A stretch of 64,000 nt of DNA, taken from positions 62,001 through 126,000 of the forward strand of contig NZ_RJVI01000001.1 of assembly GCF_003751635.1 (NCBI RefSeq). The letters are read 5' to 3'. Position 1 is the stretch's first letter. Every line of letters begins with the position of its first letter. This document shows positions 51,066 through 60,552 of this stretch, piece after piece. This DNA comes from Inmirania thermothiophila. Lineage in GTDB: Bacteria > Pseudomonadota > Gammaproteobacteria > DSM-100275. The position numbers were made by a program, and so were the translations under genes. The notes below the pieces were generated by a model, which was not told where the DNA came from, did not search any database, and worked only from the letters and a program-made list of their open reading frames with translations.

Positions 51066-52733
51066 TCAGCGCCCGTCCATGCCCTCGACCCGCCGCGCCG
51101 ACTCGCCGATCGCCTCGCGCCAGACGCGGCCCTCGGGGTCCACCACCACCGGGCGCAGCAGGATCACCAGCTCGCTCTTGCGCGCCTCGCTGCGGCGGTG
51201 GCGGAAGAGCGCGCCGACCCCCGGCAGGCGGCCGAGCACCGGCGTGGCGGCGCGGTCGTCGGTGGAGGACTCCCGCATCAGCCCGCCGATCACCACCACC
51301 TGCCCGCTGCGCGCCCGCACCACGCTGTCGGCCTCGCGCACCCGGCTCACCGCCAGCGGCAGGGTCTGGGTCTCGCCGCCGATGGTGATGGTCTTGATCT
51401 GGTCGCTGACCTCGCTCACCGTCGGGTGGATGTGCAGCACGATGCCGCCCTCCTCGTCGATCTCGGGGGTGACATCCAGCGCGATGCCCGAGAAGAACGG
51501 GGTCAGGGTGACGTCCGGGGTGGTGGTGGTGGTGGTGCCGGTGACGGTGGTGGTGGAGACGTCGGTGACGAAGAACTCGTCCGAGCCCACCTTGATCACC
51601 GCCTTCTGGTTGTTGACCGTGGCCACCCGCGGGCTCGAGAGCACCCGCACCCGGCCCTGGGTCTCCAGCAGCTCCAGGAAGGCGGTGAAGTCGTCGAAGC
51701 GGGCGGCGAAGGTGAGCACGCCGCCGAAGGCCTCGGCGAGGTTCCCGGCGACGGCGCTGAAGTCGAGGGGATCGAGGTTGCCCTCCTGGCCGGCGATCAC
51801 GGAGCGGCCCTCGGCGAGGGCGCGCCCGCCCCCGGTCTGCCCCACCAGGAAGTGGTCGCCGCCGCCGAGGAGCGCGGCCCAGTTGATCCCGCTCTGGAAG
51901 CCGTCGGCGAGCTCCACCTCCACGATCTTGGCCTCGAGGATCACCTGCCGCGACAGGGCCAGCCGCGCCTTCTCCAGGTAGGCCTCCACGTCGCGCAGCT
52001 CGCCCGGCATCGCCCGCACCACCAGCAGCCCGGTCTGCGGGCTCGCGACCACGCTGCGCCCATCGCCGCCGCCGACGAGGGCGCGCACCGCGGCCTCGAG
52101 CTCGCGCCAGAAGTCCGACTGGGTCTCGGTGCGGACGCTGCTGCCGGTGACTTCCTCCGGGGTCGAGCCGGCCCCGCCGTCCTCGCTGCGCGCCCCCTGC
52201 GAGACCTGGCCCGAGCTGACCCGCGTGCGCGACTCGCCCCGACGCACCACGTCGGGGTAGCCGACGTGGAAGATGCGCGTGCTCAGCCGAGCCGGATAGA
52301 CCTCGAAGCCGGTGGCGGTGCGGCGGAAGTCGTAGCCGTAGACGTCGCGCACGACGCGCAGCACCTCGGGCACGGTGACGTTCTTGAGCTCGAGGCTGAT
52401 GGAGCCCTCCACCGCCGGGTGCACCACCATGTTCCATGGCGTGCCGCGCACCAGGCCCATGAAGAAGGCCTTGGCCGGGGCGTCGTGCACCTCGATGTCG
52501 AAGCGCGGCTCGGGCGAAGACTCCGCCTCCGGGAGCTGCACCCGCACCGGCGGAAGCAGCGCCTGCGCCACCGCCTCCGGGACCTGCCCGCCGGCGTCCG
52601 CCTCCGGCACCGCCAGCGCCTCGCGCACACCGTCCGCGCCGGCGGCCGGCGGCGCCTGCGGCCGCGGATGCGGCGCCGCGCACCCGGCGAGCAGCGCCAG
52701 CGCCAGCATCGCCCCCCCAAGGCCCCGCACCAT
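51066..52733 (-). CDS. mshL: MshL, secretin of MSHA pilus
   Basis: A 555-residue outer-membrane secretin. A lipoprotein signal with LLAGCAAPHP gives a lipobox Cys near residue 17. The N-terminal secretin/STN-type domain follows, then LSSPRVATVNNQKAVIKVG and VPVLGRLPGVGALFRHRR of the secretin core. A Thr-rich stretch (TTTVTGTTTTTTP) lies in the beta-barrel region. The ATG at 52733 is chosen over the GTG at 52742 because GAGGAGG then has 8-nt spacing. mshK ends 5 bp upstream. Confidence 0.93.
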   Translation of the reverse strand: MVRGLGGAMLALALLAGCAAPHPRPQAPPAAGADGVREALAVPEADAGGQVPEAVAQALLPPVRVQLPEAESSPEPRFDIEVHDAPAKAFFMGLVRGTPWNMVVHPAVEGSISLELKNVTVPEVLRVVRDVYGYDFRRTATGFEVYPARLSTRIFHVGYPDVVRRGESRTRVSSGQVSQGARSEDGGAGSTPEEVTGSSVRTETQSDFWRELEAAVRALVGGGDGRSVVASPQTGLLVVRAMPGELRDVEAYLEKARLALSRQVILEAKIVEVELADGFQSGINWAALLGGGDHFLVGQTGGGRALAEGRSVIAGQEGNLDPLDFSAVAGNLAEAFGGVLTFAARFDDFTAFLELLETQGRVRVLSSPRVATVNNQKAVIKVGSDEFFVTDVSTTTVTGTTTTTTPDVTLTPFFSGIALDVTPEIDEEGGIVLHIHPTVSEVSDQIKTITIGGETQTLPLAVSRVREADSVVRARSGQVVVIGGLMRESSTDDRAATPVLGRLPGVGALFRHRRSEARKSELVILLRPVVVDPEGRVWREAIGESARRVEGMDGR

Positions 52734-52738
52734 GCCCC

Positions 52739-53074
52739 TCACCTCCTCTCCACCGGCGGCAGCGGGAGCCGAAGCCGCACCTTGCGGCCGCCGCCCACGA
52801 GCTCGACCTCCCCGCGCCCGATCCGCGCCACCCGCCAGGATCCGACGCGCTCGCCCTCGCCCACGGTGCGCCCGTCGAGGATCGCGAGCCGGCGCGCCCC
52901 CCCGAGGAGGACCCCCTCGAGGCGCGGCGGCGGCGCCGCCGGGGCCTTCCCCCGCGCCTGGCGCGCCGCCGGGACCGCGGGCGGCAGGGTGGGATCCGCG
53001 AGCCCCTCCGCCGCCGCAGCCGCCCCCGAGAGCAGCGCCGCGAGCATCGCCGCCAGGATCCGCCCCACCGTCAC
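52739..53074 (-). CDS. mshK: MshK-like periplasmic protein
   Basis: A 111-residue exported protein with a signal peptide (about 1-21) and LADPTLPP just after it, typical of MshK/PilP-related proteins. A small beta domain (LEGVLLGGARRLAILDGRTVGEGERVGSWRVARI) matches the type II secretion GspC/PilP fold. The GTG start at 53074 overlaps the mshJ stop as GTGA. It likely bridges the inner-membrane MshI/J proteins and MshL. Confidence 0.87.
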   Translation of the reverse strand: MTVGRILAAMLAALLSGAAAAAEGLADPTLPPAVPAARQARGKAPAAPPPRLEGVLLGGARRLAILDGRTVGEGERVGSWRVARIGRGEVELVGGGRKVRLRLPLPPVERR

Positions 53075-53736
53075 ACCCCGATCCAGTGCCGCTGCAGGCT
53101 CAGGGTCTCGAGCCGCAGCACCACCCGTACCCGCCCGGGCCGAAGCGTCTCCAGCTCCAGCCCCGCCCAGTGCAGCCGCCACGGCAGCCCCTCGAGGCGC
53201 CGCAGATAGGCGAGGACGTCCAGGTAGGCGCCCTCCACCGTGAGCTCCAGCCCGTGCCGGTAGAGCCGCGGCACCCCCGCCTCGGCCTCCGCCGGCCCCC
53301 CGCCCGGCGGCGCCGCCCCCCAGGGCCGGGGCGGCAGGTTGCGCAGCGCCACCAGCCGCAGCCTGCCGTCCTCGCCGATGAGGTCGCGCAGCAGCTCCGG
53401 CATCTCCTCGGGCCGGATGAAGGCCGCGGCGATGGCGTCGAGGCGCCGGTTCACCGCCTCGAGCTCCGCCTGCAGGGCGGCGATCTCGGCCCGCAGCGGC
53501 GCGTCGGGGTCGCCCCGCCGCCGCGTCTGCTCGGCCGCGATCGCGGCCTGCAGCCGGGCCTGCGCCTGCGCCGCCTCCGTAAGCTCCGCCCCGAGCCGCG
53601 CCCGCTCGGCGCGCAGCGGCGTGTCCACCAGCGCCGACCAGGCCGCCGCCACCACCGCGAGGGCGGCGGCGAAGAGGAGCCGGCGGCTGCGCGCCGGCAG
53701 CCGCTCCAGCCGCAGCCAGAGCGCGCCGATCCTCAT
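53071..53736 (-). CDS. mshJ: MshJ, PilO-like protein
   Basis: A 221-residue bitopic inner-membrane protein with one membrane segment (about 18-38), a periplasmic coiled coil (40-100, ERARLGAELTEAAQAQARLQ) and a C-terminal ferredoxin-like PilO domain ending in LQRHWIGV. It pairs with the PilN-like protein upstream. Its ATG overlaps that gene's stop as ATGA. Confidence 0.88.
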   Translation of the reverse strand: MRIGALWLRLERLPARSRRLLFAAALAVVAAAWSALVDTPLRAERARLGAELTEAAQAQARLQAAIAAEQTRRRGDPDAPLRAEIAALQAELEAVNRRLDAIAAAFIRPEEMPELLRDLIGEDGRLRLVALRNLPPRPWGAAPPGGGPAEAEAGVPRLYRHGLELTVEGAYLDVLAYLRRLEGLPWRLHWAGLELETLRPGRVRVVLRLETLSLQRHWIGV

Positions 53737-54344
53737 CCGGCCCCGCCCTCCGACGGCCGCGTGCGCAGGTCGAACTCCACCTGGGCCGGACGCGGCTGCG
53801 GCCGGCGGATCGCGAACTCGTCGAACAGCCGCCCCGCGAACGCCGGCTCCTCGCGCAGCCCGGCGAGCCAGCGCGGCAGCAACCGCGGCGCCACCGCCCC
53901 CCCGCCCACGGCCAGGTCCCGACCGCCGTCGCCGATCGTCAATCTTTCGATCCAGACCCCCTCGAGGCGCCGCCGCGCCAGCCCCTCGAGGACCCCGGCG
54001 AACCCCGCGCCGCCGGGCAGATCGCGCGCGTCCAGCATCCCCACCAGGCGACGACGCCCCTCGAGCTCGCGGTGCAGAGCGTCGCGACGCGCGACGAGAC
54101 GCGCGTCCGCCTGCGGCACCGGCAGCGCCCGCACCGATTCCAGCTCCTGCTCGAGCGCGGCCTGCGCCGCCCGCGCCGCCTCGAGGCGGGCCGCGAGCCG
54201 CGCCGTCTCCACCCGGCCCAGCACGCCGTGGGCGACCGCCGCAACCAGGGCGAGAAGCACCACCGCGGTCCCGGCCACGGCCTCGCGGCGGCCCGGGTTG
54301 CGGTAGCGCTCGGGGCGGTAGAGATTGATGCGCTGGGTGCTCAC
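53733..54344 (-). CDS. PilN-like protein of MSHA assembly complex
   Basis: A 203-residue bitopic inner-membrane protein that opens with STQRINLYRPERYR, the PilN signature that binds the PilM-like partner. A membrane segment spans about 26-45, then comes a coiled coil (50-95) and a ferredoxin-like PilN domain with LEGVWIERLTIGDGG. It corresponds to the C-terminal part of MshI, or MshI2, in other species. The GTG start at 54344 overlaps the mshI stop. Confidence 0.87.
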   Translation of the reverse strand: MSTQRINLYRPERYRNPGRREAVAGTAVVLLALVAAVAHGVLGRVETARLAARLEAARAAQAALEQELESVRALPVPQADARLVARRDALHRELEGRRRLVGMLDARDLPGGAGFAGVLEGLARRRLEGVWIERLTIGDGGRDLAVGGGAVAPRLLPRWLAGLREEPAFAGRLFDEFAIRRPQPRPAQVEFDLRTRPSEGGAG

Positions 54345-55248
54345 GCCCCCTCCTCGCGCAGCCTGAGCACCGCCCCGAGGGCGCAGGCCGCGGCCGGATC
54401 CAGCGCCGCCCGCTCGGCGTCCCACCGCCCCAACGCCTGCGCCTCCAGGGCCCTCGCCCGCACGCCGAGGGCGGCATCCAGCCGGGCCGCCGCCTCCGCC
54501 GCCCCCTCGCCGGTCACCACCAGCAGCTCCTGCACCGCGCCGAGGCCGAAGTGGCTCTCGAAGTGGTCGAAGGTCCGCTGCAGCTCCAGGGCCATGGACT
54601 CGATGCGCGGGTCCACCTCCAGGGCGAGGCCCGTGCCGTCGGCCGCAGGAGCCGACGCCGCCGCCACCTCCACCCCCACGGGCAGGGTGCGGGCGAGGTA
54701 GAGGGCCCCGTTGCGCGCCACCACCAGGAGGCTCGTGCCCGTCTCGGCGGCGAGCAGCGCCACCGCCCGGTCCGCCGGCCCCGCCGCCCCGGCAAGCCGC
54801 GCCAGCGCGAGCTCCGGGATCTCGATGGCCCGTACCCGCATCCCCGCCCCGCGCAGCGCGCGCACGCGGGCATCCACCGCCTCCCCCGGGGCGGCTACGG
54901 CGTAGAGCTGCGGGCGCGCATCGCCCGCCTCGCCCACCGGGAAGACGTCCACCACCGCCGAGGCCGCGGGGAAGTCCAGCAGGTCGCGGATGCGCCAGCG
55001 CACCGCCTCGGCGAGCTCGGCCTCCGCCACCTGCGGCCGCTCCACCTGGAGCAGCTTGTACTCGCTGCGGGCGAGCACCGCGCAGGCGGCACGGCCCCGC
55101 CAGCGCTGGTCGCCCTCCACCCACCGCTCGCAGGCCTCCACCACGAGCCCGCCGCCCTCGACGCGGGCGGCGACGACGGCCCCCTCGCCCTCGCCGAAGG
55201 CGATCCCGACGCAGCCCCTTCCGCGGCGGCCGATCGCGATGGCTCCAT
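54341..55248 (-). CDS. mshI: MshI, PilM-like actin-fold protein (start disturbed)
   Basis: Actin-like cytoplasmic protein that docks the MSHA inner-membrane complex. The conserved first strand reads GCVGIAFGEGEGAVVAARV upstream of 55144, so the first in-frame GTG (55144) is too far inside. Going back in frame to 55240 and beyond there is no ATG, GTG or TTG. An ATG at 55248 with AAAAGGGGGG before it is out of frame by one base. A single missing base near 55241-55247 would give a normal 302-residue protein starting MEPIAIGRR. Either a sequence error, a real frameshift or a rare start codon is involved. The C-terminal part (to 54341) is intact. Confidence 0.78.
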
Positions 55249-56291: not shown

Positions 56292-56763
56292 GTTCCGCGT
56301 CGTCCTCTACCGCCCCGAGATCCCGCCCAACACGGGCAACGTCATCCGCCTCTGCGCCAACACCGGCTGCTCCCTGCACCTGATCGGCCCGCTCGGCTTC
56401 AGCCTTGAGGACCGCCACCTCCGCCGCGCCGGCCTCGACTACCGCGAGCTCGCCGTGCTGCGCACCCACGCCGATCTCGACGCCTTCCTCGCCGCCGAGC
56501 GCCCGCCGCGCCTCTGGGCCTTCACCACCCGCGGCACCGCAGCCCACACCGAGGCCCGCTTCGGCCCCGGCGACGCCCTCCTCTTCGGCCCCGAGACCGC
56601 GGGCCTGCCGGCCGAGGTCCTCGCCCGCATCCCCGCGGCCCGGCGGCTGCGCCTGCCCATGCGGCCGGGCAACCGCAGCCTCAACCTCTCCAACGCCGTC
56701 GCCGTCGCCGTCTACGAGGCCTGGCGCCAGCATGGCTTCGCCGGCGCCGCCCCGCCCGGCTAG
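56290..56763 (+). CDS. trmL: tRNA (cytidine34-2'-O)-methyltransferase
   Basis: A 157-residue SPOUT enzyme that methylates the wobble ribose of tRNA-Leu. FRVVLYRPEIPPNTGNVIRLCANTGC at the N-terminus, LLFGPETAGLP in the knot and NRSLNLSNAVAVAVYEAWRQ at the end are all diagnostic. The ATG at 56290 overlaps pyrD's start on the other strand, so any ribosome site lies inside pyrD codons and none is obvious. It ends overlapping the gpsA stop. trmL beside gpsA-secB is a conserved arrangement. Confidence 0.97.
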   Translation: MFRVVLYRPEIPPNTGNVIRLCANTGCSLHLIGPLGFSLEDRHLRRAGLDYRELAVLRTHADLDAFLAAERPPRLWAFTTRGTAAHTEARFGPGDALLFGPETAGLPAEVLARIPAARRLRLPMRPGNRSLNLSNAVAVAVYEAWRQHGFAGAAPPG

Positions 56764-57803
56764 AAGCCGGCGAACTCCTCCTTCTGGCTCCGCGCGAGCA
56801 GCGCCTGCACCGCCTCCTGCGCGCTGCAGCGCCCCTTCAGCAGACGGTCCACCTGCTCGCAGATGGGCATCTCCACGCCGAGGCGGGCGCCGAGGCGCCG
56901 CACCGCCGCCGCCGTCGCCACCCCCTCCACCGCCTGGCCGATGCCGGCGAGGGCCTCGGCGAGGGCCGCCCCGCGCGCCAACGCCAGCCCCAGGCGGCGG
57001 TTGCGCGACTGGTCGTCGGTGCAGGTGAGGACGAGGTCGCCGAGCCCGGCGAGCCCCATGAAGGTCTCGCGCCGTCCACCGAGGGCGAGCCCGAGGCGCG
57101 TCACCTCGGCGAGGCCGCGGGTGACGAGGGCCGCGCGCGCGTTGGCGCCGAAGCCGAGCCCGTCGGAGACGCCGGCGGCGATGGCCATGACGTTCTTGAC
57201 CGCGCCCCCCACCTCGACCCCCACCAGGTCGTCACTGAGATAGGCGCGGAAGGCGCCGTGATGGAGACGGCGCGCCCAGGCCCGGGCGGCCTCGGGATGG
57301 CCGGCGACGGTGACCGCGGTGGGCAGCCCGGCCGCGACCTCGGCGGCGAAGCTGGGGCCGGAGACCACGGCCACGGGCACCGCGGCGCCGAGGCGCTCGG
57401 CGACGACCTCGTGCAGGAGCCGCTCGCCGCCGTGCTCGAAGCCCTTGGTGGCCCAGGCGAGCGCCCGGCCCGCCTCCCACAGCGGGCGCAGCGCCTCCAG
57501 CAGCGGGGCGAAGCCCGCGCTCGGCACCGCCACCAGCACCTCGGCCCCCCCCGCGAGGGCGGCCTCCAGCGCCGCCACCGGCTCGAGCCCCTCCGGAAGC
57601 GCGACCCCCGGCAGGTACCGGGCATTGGCTCGCTCGCGCGCAAGCCGCCCGAGGTGCACCGGATCGCGCCCCCACAGGCGGACCCGATGGCCGCCGCGCG
57701 CCAGGTGCACGGCGAGCGCCGTCCCCCAGGAGCCCGCCCCGAGGACGGCGAGGGGGGGCTCAGTGGCGCCCGGCGGCCTGCTGCTGGCGCCGGCTCTGGG
57801 CAT
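56760..57803 (-). CDS. gpsA: Glycerol-3-phosphate dehydrogenase [NAD(P)+]
   Basis: Makes sn-glycerol-3-phosphate for phospholipid synthesis (substrate for PlsY, also here). It is 347 residues; the NAD fold begins at LAVLGAGSWGTALAVHLA (about 18-35) after a non-conserved leader. Also present are ATKGFEHGGERLLHEVV, VVSGPSFAAEVAAGLPTAV and VKNVMAIAAGVSDGLGFG. The ATG at 57803 lies 44 bp inside secB; no closer in-frame start exists. It overlaps the trmL stop tail-to-tail. Confidence 0.95.
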   Translation of the reverse strand: MPRAGASSRPPGATEPPLAVLGAGSWGTALAVHLARGGHRVRLWGRDPVHLGRLARERANARYLPGVALPEGLEPVAALEAALAGGAEVLVAVPSAGFAPLLEALRPLWEAGRALAWATKGFEHGGERLLHEVVAERLGAAVPVAVVSGPSFAAEVAAGLPTAVTVAGHPEAARAWARRLHHGAFRAYLSDDLVGVEVGGAVKNVMAIAAGVSDGLGFGANARAALVTRGLAEVTRLGLALGGRRETFMGLAGLGDLVLTCTDDQSRNRRLGLALARGAALAEALAGIGQAVEGVATAAAVRRLGARLGVEMPICEQVDRLLKGRCSAQEAVQALLARSQKEEFAGF

Positions 57804-58230
57804 AGACGGCGTTGAAGTCCACCGGGGCCAGGATCACCGGCGGGAACCCCCCCTTGGCCACCAGGCTGCCCACCGCTTCGCGGGCGTAGGGATAGAGGGT
57901 CCCGGGGCAGAAGGCCCCGAGCACCGGCCCGAGCTCCTTCTCCTCGAAGCCGCGCACGCGGAACACGCCCGCCTGCTGCACCTCCACGAGAAAGGCGGTG
58001 CGCTCGCCGAGGCGCGCCGTCACCGTCACCGTGAGCACCACCTCATAGGCATCCCCCTCGAGCGGACGGGCGTTGGAACCGAGCTGGACCTCGGCCTGCG
58101 GCTCCCACTTCTCGGCGAAGACCGCCGGGCTGTTGGGCGCCTCGAAGGAGACGTCCTTGACGTAGAGCCGCTCGATCAGGACCTGGCGCTCGCCGCCCCC
58201 CGCGGCCGCATCCTCGGGCCGCCCGCTCAT
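57760..58230 (-). CDS. secB: SecB protein-export chaperone
   Basis: A 156-residue tetrameric chaperone that keeps secretory proteins unfolded and delivers them to SecA. Typical stretches are LYVKDVSFEAPNSPAVF, VEVQQAGVFRVRGF, FCPGTLYPYAREAVGSLV and GGFPPVILAPVDFNAVY. The ATG overlaps the grxC stop as ATGA. Its 3' end overlaps gpsA by 44 bp. The order yibN-grxC-secB-gpsA is the classic gammaproteobacterial arrangement. Confidence 0.98.
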   Translation of the reverse strand: MSGRPEDAAAGGGERQVLIERLYVKDVSFEAPNSPAVFAEKWEPQAEVQLGSNARPLEGDAYEVVLTVTVTARLGERTAFLVEVQQAGVFRVRGFEEKELGPVLGAFCPGTLYPYAREAVGSLVAKGGFPPVILAPVDFNAVYAQSRRQQQAAGRH

Positions 58231-58502
58231 GCCGATGCCCGCCCGCCGTCGAGACCCAGGAGGCGGTCCAGCTCCCCCTCGAGATCCAGCTCCGCGAGAT
58301 CGTCGAAGCCGCCCACCGGCCGGCCGTCGATGAAGACCTGCGGCACCGTGCCGCGCCCGCTCAGCCGCTCCATCTCCGCCCAGCGGTGCGGTTCCTCGTC
58401 GACCCGGATCTCCCGCCAGTGCACCCCCTTGCGCTCGAGGAGCCTGCGTGCCCGCATGCAGTAGGGGCACGACCCGGTGGCGTACATGATCACCTCGGCC
58501 AT
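58227..58502 (-). CDS. grxC: Glutaredoxin 3
   Basis: A 91-residue glutaredoxin with the dithiol site CPYC in YATGSCPYCMRARRLLERKGVHW, the cis-Pro region GTVPQVFIDG and the glutathione-binding GGFDDLAELD. It is cytoplasmic. It depends on glutathione made by gshA and gshB in this window. It starts at 58502, 38 bp downstream of the rhodanese gene. Confidence 0.96.
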   Translation of the reverse strand: MAEVIMYATGSCPYCMRARRLLERKGVHWREIRVDEEPHRWAEMERLSGRGTVPQVFIDGRPVGGFDDLAELDLEGELDRLLGLDGGRASA

Positions 58503-58539: not shown

Positions 58540-58965
58540 TCACTTGCGCCGCACCGGCAGGTTGGCCCGCTCCCAGGCCAGCATGCCGCCGGCGAGATGG
58601 TACACCGGCCCGAAGCCGCTGCGCGCGAGCAGGGCACAGGCCGAAGGGGCGCGCGAGCCGCTGCGGCAGACCACCACCAGCGGGCGACCCCGGTAGCGCG
58701 CCAGCTCGTCGAGCCGCTCGCGCAGGCGCGCCAGCGGCACCGAGACGGCCCCCGCGATGTGCCCCTCGCGGAACTCGTGCGGCTCGCGCACATCCAGCAC
58801 CACCGCGTCCTCGCGGTTGATCAGGGTGGTCGCCTCCAGCGGCCCCACCTCGCGGTAGCGCCGCAGGGCCGGGGCGACGAAGGACCAGACGAGGGCGCCG
58901 CCGGTGACGACGAAGGCCGCGACCAGCAGCCAGTGGCGCGTGGCGAACTCGATCAGCCGCTCCAT
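58540..58965 (-). CDS. YibN-like membrane-anchored rhodanese
   Basis: A 141-residue single-domain rhodanese with an N-terminal membrane helix (about 12-30) and active-site loop CRSGSR (sulfur-accepting Cys) preceded by VLDVREPHEF. The active domain is predicted to face the cytoplasm by analogy with YibN. It is first in the yibN-grxC-secB-gpsA block and sits 48 bp downstream of an ArsR regulator with paired cysteines, on the same strand. That pairing recalls E. coli ygaV-ygaP. The physiological sulfur donor is unknown. Confidence 0.9.
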   Translation of the reverse strand: MERLIEFATRHWLLVAAFVVTGGALVWSFVAPALRRYREVGPLEATTLINREDAVVLDVREPHEFREGHIAGAVSVPLARLRERLDELARYRGRPLVVVCRSGSRAPSACALLARSGFGPVYHLAGGMLAWERANLPVRRK

Positions 58966-59013
58966 GTCGGCGCTGGACTCCGGATGGTCGGGACCGCGCG
59001 CGGGGCGAGGCGC

Positions 59014-59334
59014 TCAGGGCCGGTGGCCCGAGCAGAAGATCTCGCGCATCATCTCGATCAGGCGCAGCGTGCGCGCGTCGCGGACCCGGTAGTAGACTCG
59101 GTTGCCGTCCTTGCGCGAGGCCAGCAGCCCCTTGTCGCGCAGGATCGCCAGATGCTGAGAGATGTTGCTCTGGGAGGTGCCCACGTGATCGGCGATCTCC
59201 TGCACGCTCACCTCGCCGTCGCCGAGGGTGCAGAGGATCTTCAGGCGCAGCGGATGCGACATGGCCTTGAGCGAGCGCGAGGTCCGCTCGATGTCCTCCT
59301 CGCGCGCCATGAGCAGTCCGTGGGCCGTGTTCAT
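59014..59334 (-). CDS. ArsR-family regulator, SqrR/BigR/YgaV-like persulfide sensor
   Basis: A 106-residue winged-helix repressor: SLKAMSHPLRLKILCTLGDGEVSVQEIADHVGTSQSNISQHLAILRDKGLL and a wing RKDGNRVYYRV. It has two cysteines, C35 in the second helix and C101 in the last helix (EIFCSG). They are 66 residues apart, the same spacing as the sensing pair in SqrR (41/107) and BigR (42/108). It is therefore probably a persulfide-responsive repressor. It lies upstream of a rhodanese gene and diverges from envC across 84 bp containing an AT-rich segment. The ATG at 59334 follows GGGAGG. Confidence 0.85.
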   Translation of the reverse strand: MNTAHGLLMAREEDIERTSRSLKAMSHPLRLKILCTLGDGEVSVQEIADHVGTSQSNISQHLAILRDKGLLASRKDGNRVYYRVRDARTLRLIEMMREIFCSGHRP

Positions 59335-59418
59335 GGGGAGCGCCCTCCCGGCCGCGGGTTCCCGGCGGTCATTTAGCATCCATCGATACAATAATACGCC
59401 ATCGCAACCACGGCAAAC

Positions 59419-60552
59419 ATGTCGCGCCTGCCCGCCCTGCCGCTGCTGCTCCTGGCCGCCCTCGCCGCGGCCGCCCCCCCCGAGGACGACCTCGCCCGCC
59501 TGCGCGAGCGCATCCGCACCGTGGAGCAGGCGCTCGCCGGCGACCGCGGGCGCCTCGAGGCGCTGGGGCGCGAGCTCGAGGGGCTCGAGCGCGAGCTGGG
59601 CGAGGTGGGCCGCGAGCTGCACCACCTCGAGGCGGAGGCGGCGCGAAGCCGCGACCGCATCGCCGCCCTGCGCCGGACCCGCGACGAGGCCGCCGACACC
59701 GTCGGCCGCCACCGCGCCCTGCTGCGACGGCAGCTGCGCGCCGCCTTCGCCGCCGGCCGCGCCGAGCGCGTCAAGCTCCTCCTCGAGCAGGACGATCCGG
59801 GACGCGTGGCGCGCATGCTGGCCTACCACCGCCGCCTCGCGCGGGCGCGCGCCCGCGAGCTCGAGCGGCTGCAGGCCGAGATCGCGCGTCTCGCCGAGGC
59901 CGAGCGCCGCCTCGCCGAGGAGGTCCGGCGCCTGGAGGGGCTGCAGGCGGCGGCGGCGGCGCGGCGCGACGCCCTCGCGGCCTCGCGTGCGGCGCGCGCG
60001 GCGCTTGCGGCCGAGATCGAGCGCTCGGTGCGCGCGCGGGGGCAGGAGCTGGCGCAGCTTCGCGCCGATGCCGAACGGCTGGAGGCGCTGGTGCGCTCCC
60101 TGCGCGAGGCCCCGCCCCTCGCCGAGGGCGAGCGCGTGCCCTTCGCGAGGCTGCGGGGCCGCCTCCGCTGGCCGCTGAGCGGCCGCGTCCTCGCCCGCTA
60201 CGGCAGCCCCCGGCGCGGCGGCGGGCCGCAGTGGCGAGGCCTGCTCATCGGCGCCCGCACCGGCGCCCCGGTGCGCGCCGTCTCCCACGGACGCGTGGTC
60301 TTCGCCGACTGGCTGCGCGGGTACGGCCTCCTGCTCATCATCGACCACGGCGACGGCTACATGAGCCTCTACGCCCACAACGACGCCCTCTACAAGGAGA
60401 CCGGCGAGTGGGTCGAGGGGGGCGAGGTGGTGGCCGCGGTGGGGGCAAGCGGCGGCCGGCGCGAACCCGCCCTCTACTTCGAGCTGCGCCGCGACGGCGA
60501 GCCGCTGGACCCGGCGGGGTGGCTGGGACGGCAGGTGGCCGGCGTGAAGTAG
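59419..60552 (+). CDS. envC: EnvC-like murein hydrolase activator
   Basis: A 377-residue periplasmic protein with a signal peptide (about 1-20), long coiled coils (25-225) and a C-terminal LytM/M23 domain (260-375). The M23 zinc site is degenerate: QWRGLLIG replaces the HxGxD motif, and ALYFELR replaces HLHFEIR. Like E. coli EnvC it should be non-catalytic, activating amidases at the division site. The first in-frame ATG is at 59419. A likely -10 (TACAAT, 59387-59392) precedes it. ctpA and yibQ follow on the same strand. Confidence 0.93.
   Translation: MSRLPALPLLLLAALAAAAPPEDDLARLRERIRTVEQALAGDRGRLEALGRELEGLERELGEVGRELHHLEAEAARSRDRIAALRRTRDEAADTVGRHRALLRRQLRAAFAAGRAERVKLLLEQDDPGRVARMLAYHRRLARARARELERLQAEIARLAEAERRLAEEVRRLEGLQAAAAARRDALAASRAARAALAAEIERSVRARGQELAQLRADAERLEALVRSLREAPPLAEGERVPFARLRGRLRWPLSGRVLARYGSPRRGGGPQWRGLLIGARTGAPVRAVSHGRVVFADWLRGYGLLLIIDHGDGYMSLYAHNDALYKETGEWVEGGEVVAAVGASGGRREPALYFELRRDGEPLDPAGWLGRQVAGVK

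Follow-up and report, generated by a model that had tools for sequence, protein, structure and literature searches.

A two-cysteine ArsR repressor of predicted persulfide-sensor type precedes the yibN-grx-secB-gpsA block of Inmirania thermothiophila and other Gammaproteobacteria

A stretch of 64,000 nucleotides from Inmirania thermothiophila (contig NZ_RJVI01000001.1, positions 62,001 to 126,000; termed here the window) carries a small ArsR-family gene next to a rhodanese gene. The features of this locus are:

59014..59334, minus strand: ArsR-family repressor (106 aa, Cys35/Cys101), predicted to be of the persulfide-sensor type
58540..58965, minus strand: membrane-anchored rhodanese of the YibN type, with catalytic Cys100 in the loop CRSGSR
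58227..58502, minus strand: glutaredoxin 3 (grxC), 50% to E. coli GrxC
57760..58230, minus strand: protein-export chaperone SecB, assigned by family searches
56760..57803, minus strand: glycerol-3-phosphate dehydrogenase GpsA, assigned by family searches
59419..60552, plus strand: EnvC-type murein hydrolase activator, a divergent neighbor that we do not propose as a target
59335..59418: intergenic region between the divergent genes arsR (minus) and envC (plus)
59373..59397, minus strand: predicted promoter/operator motif GTATTATTGTAT-N10-TAA, with the core TATTATTGTAT at 59386-59396

The arsR ORF begins with the ATG at 59334 and ends with the stop codon at 59014-59016. The minus-strand genes follow in the order arsR-rhodanese-grx-secB-gpsA, separated first by 48 and 37 bp and then overlapping by 4 and 44 bp, a compact gene order that confirms the earlier proposal of an ArsR/rhodanese pair joined to the grx-secB-gpsA block. 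Promoter-like or terminator-like sites were looked for inside the block and none was found. On the plus strand, envC is accompanied by ctpA and a YibQ-like gene. By eye, pilM-N-O-P-Q-like type IV pilus genes were recognized near the block on the minus strand (window 51066-55144).

ArsR contains two cysteines, C35 and C101, separated by 66 residues. When the protein was compared with solved structures by phmmer, both residues aligned with the cysteines of BigR (3pqj), SqrR (6o8l) and HlyU (4k2e), and the Cys pair of YgaV also matched in the alignment. In the AlphaFold model (mean pLDDT 84.7), C35 lies inside helix 28-37 (α2), and C101 is one residue beyond the end of helix 87-100 (α5). The winged-helix ArsR fold was recovered (Pfam HTH_5, E=1.7e-14), and the solved folds nearest to the model include HlyU, NolR, BigR and SqrR, HlyU being the closest. 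The preliminary description had pointed to the two-Cys ArsR with its 66-residue spacing, and had named beforehand a lack of Cys conservation in orthologues as a possible refutation. The ORF and the alignments agree with it, and the pair was kept at 66 residues in 102 of 102 orthologues with at least 70% identity (one of six peptide patterns in the contig scan ended in the C101 motif; unbiased whole-genome searches agree). Because all 102 keep the pair, a chance origin of the spacing was ruled out.

In a network of 168,163 ArsR sequences, every known persulfide sensor falls into a single cluster with an α2/α5 Cys pair, and the known RSS sensors of this cluster are located near rhodaneses (PMC10509353). 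In the window protein, the α2 and α5 cysteines are conserved among orthologues, the α3 CxC metal site is absent, C35 and C101 being the only cysteines, and a sulfurtransferase/rhodanese gene adjoins. As judged from sequence, ArsR fits the persulfide-sensor kind by its cysteines, fold and neighborhood. That it is a metal or metalloid sensor acting through the two cysteines is highly improbable: it belongs to the ArsR/SmtB superfamily and scores 94.5 bits against NCBIfam HTH_metalloreg (cut-off 55), but, besides the missing α3 motif, the conserved block showed neither a metal transporter nor an arsenic gene, and the arsenic ArsR of the genome is a separate protein. The latter, the sole other ArsR match in the genome (L191, C2:49500-56000), is of the canonical CVC arsenic type. 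By eye, it adjoins genes resembling arsC and an Acr3 transporter.

Among the known systems, SqrR of the sulfur-oxidizing Rhodobacter capsulatus shares the ArsR fold and the alignment columns of the α2/α5 Cys pair, and a rhodanese is among the SqrR-regulated genes (PMC9995734). It differs in its neighbor genes and is 41-42% identical to ArsR by structural alignment. The SqrR-type deduced site ATTC-N8-GAAT (PMC9774250) was not found in the arsR promoter region (59335-59418), even with one mismatch. BigR of Xylella fastidiosa and Acinetobacter has the fold and the Cys pair in common with ArsR and regulates a sulfur-handling operon, in Xylella sensing for the PDO-rhodanese fusion Blh (PMC9995734), but it is 33-35% identical, and ArsR scores 81.7 bits against the NCBIfam BigR equivalog NF040642, below the cut-off of 155. 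Orthology to BigR or SqrR was ruled out by this cut-off, the 33-42% identity and the different operator. HlyU of Vibrio, which has the Cys pair and the nearest solved fold and reacts with persulfides (PMC10509353), differs in being an activator acting on a hemolysin gene, and is 38-39% identical to ArsR.

The adjoining gene encodes a 141-aa protein with a Pfam Rhodanese match (E=4e-20) and a hydrophobic N-terminal segment (residues ∼11-34) that forms a TM helix, as expected of the membrane-anchored rhodanese proposed earlier. The alignment with E. coli YibN (32% identity) runs from end to end. The pair had been likened to ygaV-ygaP, and the likeness stands for the arrangement: in E. coli a repressor, YgaV (Cys pair C31/C98, 38% identical to ArsR), is likewise followed by a membrane rhodanese. 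It does not extend to orthology, because YgaP has an N-terminal rhodanese and C-terminal TM segments and is not a YibN orthologue, whereas the window protein has the YibN architecture with an N-terminal anchor; in addition, ygaV-ygaP occupies another chromosomal place than the yibN block. The identity with YgaP was thus ruled out and the locus is not a ygaVP operon; since the rhodanese is YibN, the ArsR/rhodanese pair differs from the ygaVP pair. The E. coli block has the same order yibN-grxC-secB-gpsA and the same divergent gpmM-envC-yibQ genes, but it lacks an ArsR gene.

A class-wide search (E<=1e-25) detected an ArsR homologue in 183 of 369 gammaproteobacterial genomes; the arrangement is not peculiar to I. 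thermothiophila and occurs in roughly half of the sampled genomes of the class. The rhodanese gene came next after arsR in 133 of the 136 loci with enough downstream sequence; where longer downstream sequence was available, secB was present in 65/65 and gpsA in 64/65 loci, and gpmI, envC and/or ctpA lay divergently upstream in 131 of the 135 loci with upstream sequence. The nearer ArsR homologues are 70-87% identical, and the adjoining rhodanese, SecB and EnvC are mostly at 30-57% to those of the window. By raw counts, a TrxC gene was inserted between rhodanese/grx and secB in 29/131 ArsR-linked operons vs. 1/57 operons without ArsR. One example of this insertion is at L059 5382-5816, and 28 other loci have it. 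In about half of the ArsR-linked loci grx was not found between rhodanese and secB, so the composition of the operon is loose. Sulfur oxidizers are prominent among the named carriers of the homologue, and the culturable Allochromatium, Thiocapsa and Thiohalophilus have the locus. I. thermothiophila itself carries soxB and dsrA, and it therefore probably oxidizes sulfur, with sulfane sulfur as a probable intracellular product.

The catalytic Cys was kept in all 144 ArsR-linked rhodaneses vs. 45 of 57 in genomes lacking the homologue (Fisher 1e-7, kinship ignored), and the CR[ST]G loop in 101/144 vs. 5/57 (raw counts). The association between ArsR and the rhodanese motif, given here as raw counts, is confounded with phylogeny: the SecB and SecB+GpsA trees provided only 2-4 supported independent pairs, which are too few for a test of co-loss. 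In E. coli YibN an Asp aligns with the catalytic Cys; the cysteine of this protein has been described as displaced within the active loop, and YibN interacts with YidC (PMC12282094).

Instead of persulfides, the dithiol could sense some other oxidizing or electrophilic signal (peroxide, organotin, reactive electrophiles or disulfide stress), the operon then serving a general thiol-redox and envelope-stress function. Grx and TrxC are indeed general disulfide reductases, and derepression of the ygaVP operon by tributyltin was reported (PMC9774250). However, HlyU, with the same Cys pair, forms a tetrasulfide bridge of about +62 Da with persulfides and is unreactive toward H2O2 and GSSG (PMC10509353), the H2O2 sensor RexT uses Cys in α3, and the near-universal neighbor of the arsR gene is a rhodanese with an intact catalytic Cys. 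We consider such a signal unlikely.

A conserved motif was present in the intergenic stretch 59335-59418, the region already singled out in the preliminary description for DNA binding. A GTATTATTGTATAATGTTTNNTTAATAAAG-like sequence, with the pattern TATTATTGTAT-N10-TAATA, was common to 71 of 93 dereplicated arsR upstream regions. It contains the dyad TATTA-N16-TAATA centered at column 13.5 (column permutation p=0.012), with a symmetry moderately above that of the mirror control (7.84 vs. 6.6). In I. thermothiophila the right half is imperfect (TAAAT instead of TAATA). The core TATTATTGTAT occurs once in the window (74% G+C), at 59386-59396 on the minus strand, and in none of 100 shuffles, and GTATTATTGTAT-N10-TAA is matched exactly at just one place in the 2.6 Mb genome. 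In many relatives a TATAAT-like -10 element lies inside the motif. A bound repressor would therefore block its own promoter, and for the same reason part of the motif conservation may be promoter conservation.

A wider regulon was rejected, since the genome has one exact site and one site with three mismatches, not exceeding the reversed-pattern control. In relatives, sites were found at arsR together with a few one-mismatch extras, and of three of these inspected (L195-L197) none was convincingly upstream of a sulfur gene. This distribution of predicted sites is better matched by local autoregulation than by a large regulon.

These data suggest that ArsR is probably a persulfide/polysulfide-responsive autorepressor of arsR-yibN-grx-(trxC)-secB-gpsA. 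In the proposed mechanism, the reduced ArsR dimer would bind the conserved TATTATTGTAT-N10-TAATA site and block transcription of the operon. Upon accumulation of sulfane sulfur in the cell, a polysulfide bridge would join C35 and C101, and the bridged ArsR would leave the DNA. Derepression would then provide a membrane sulfurtransferase and thiol reductases able to take up and reduce sulfane sulfur, and SecB and GpsA would be made together with them. We infer both the ligand and the direction of regulation, and also a control that would reach Grx, SecB and GpsA beyond the rhodanese; the reach to secB and gpsA is suggested because the genes are closely spaced and no internal promoter or terminator was detected.

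ArsR might instead control arsR and the rhodanese gene only, with grx, secB and gpsA expressed mainly from internal promoters, an arrangement compatible with persulfide sensing that we hold to be possible but somewhat doubtful. The housekeeping genes secB and gpsA occur together in E. coli without the regulator, and about half of the linked loci have no grx detected between rhodanese and secB, as expected under such restricted control; the short gaps and overlaps of the block, in which the search for promoter-like or terminator-like sites was negative, and the nearly universal linkage of secB and gpsA argue against it.

ArsR is best read as belonging to an uncharacterised orthologue group inside the persulfide-sensing ArsR family already known, and its proposed target operon is an unusual one. 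In the open-access literature searched we found no experiment on, or study of, any of these ArsR orthologues. If ArsR senses persulfides, this would (i) explain the presence of a sulfurtransferase, glutaredoxin and thioredoxin beside SecB and GpsA; (ii) connect sulfur metabolism with envelope biogenesis in a way that can be tested; and (iii) give a role to YibN, whose catalytic center seems to have decayed chiefly in genomes that lack the sensor. More tentatively, a class-wide persulfide switch on yibN-grxC-(trxC)-secB-gpsA may be ancestral, E. coli-like lineages having lost the sensor and some of them then the catalytic Cys of YibN. If so, the 'housekeeping' block of today would be a remnant of a sulfur-response operon, and reactive sulfur would have been linked to protein export and to the supply of phospholipid precursors.

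Beyond the nearer orthologues, the distant ArsR homologues have both cysteines at the aligned positions, with a spacing of 65-71 residues. Among 84 diverse ArsR proteins, both Cys columns were filled except in L137, L182 and the canonical arsenic ArsR. L137, a natural orthologue encoded in the operon setting, retains Cys35 with Val in place of Cys101, which makes it a ready comparison for sensing. A tree of ArsR with SqrR, BigR, HlyU and YgaV had too few columns for the deep forks. A second ArsR paralogue, encoded elsewhere than in the operon, occurs in some genomes (L180, L181 and L182; 41-57% identical); the L180 and L181 paralogues keep both Cys positions, and in L182 C35 is replaced by Tyr. 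In a group of divergent homologues (L157, L159-L162 and L165) arsR is kept with ctpA divergent, and a rhodanese was not found within the stretch examined. In these proteins a third Cys is conserved, located in the wing (VLCKV, ILCKV, ILCSV or ILCRV), and in one fuller locus (L185) the ArsR gene lies between an MlaC-like gene and lgt-thyA.
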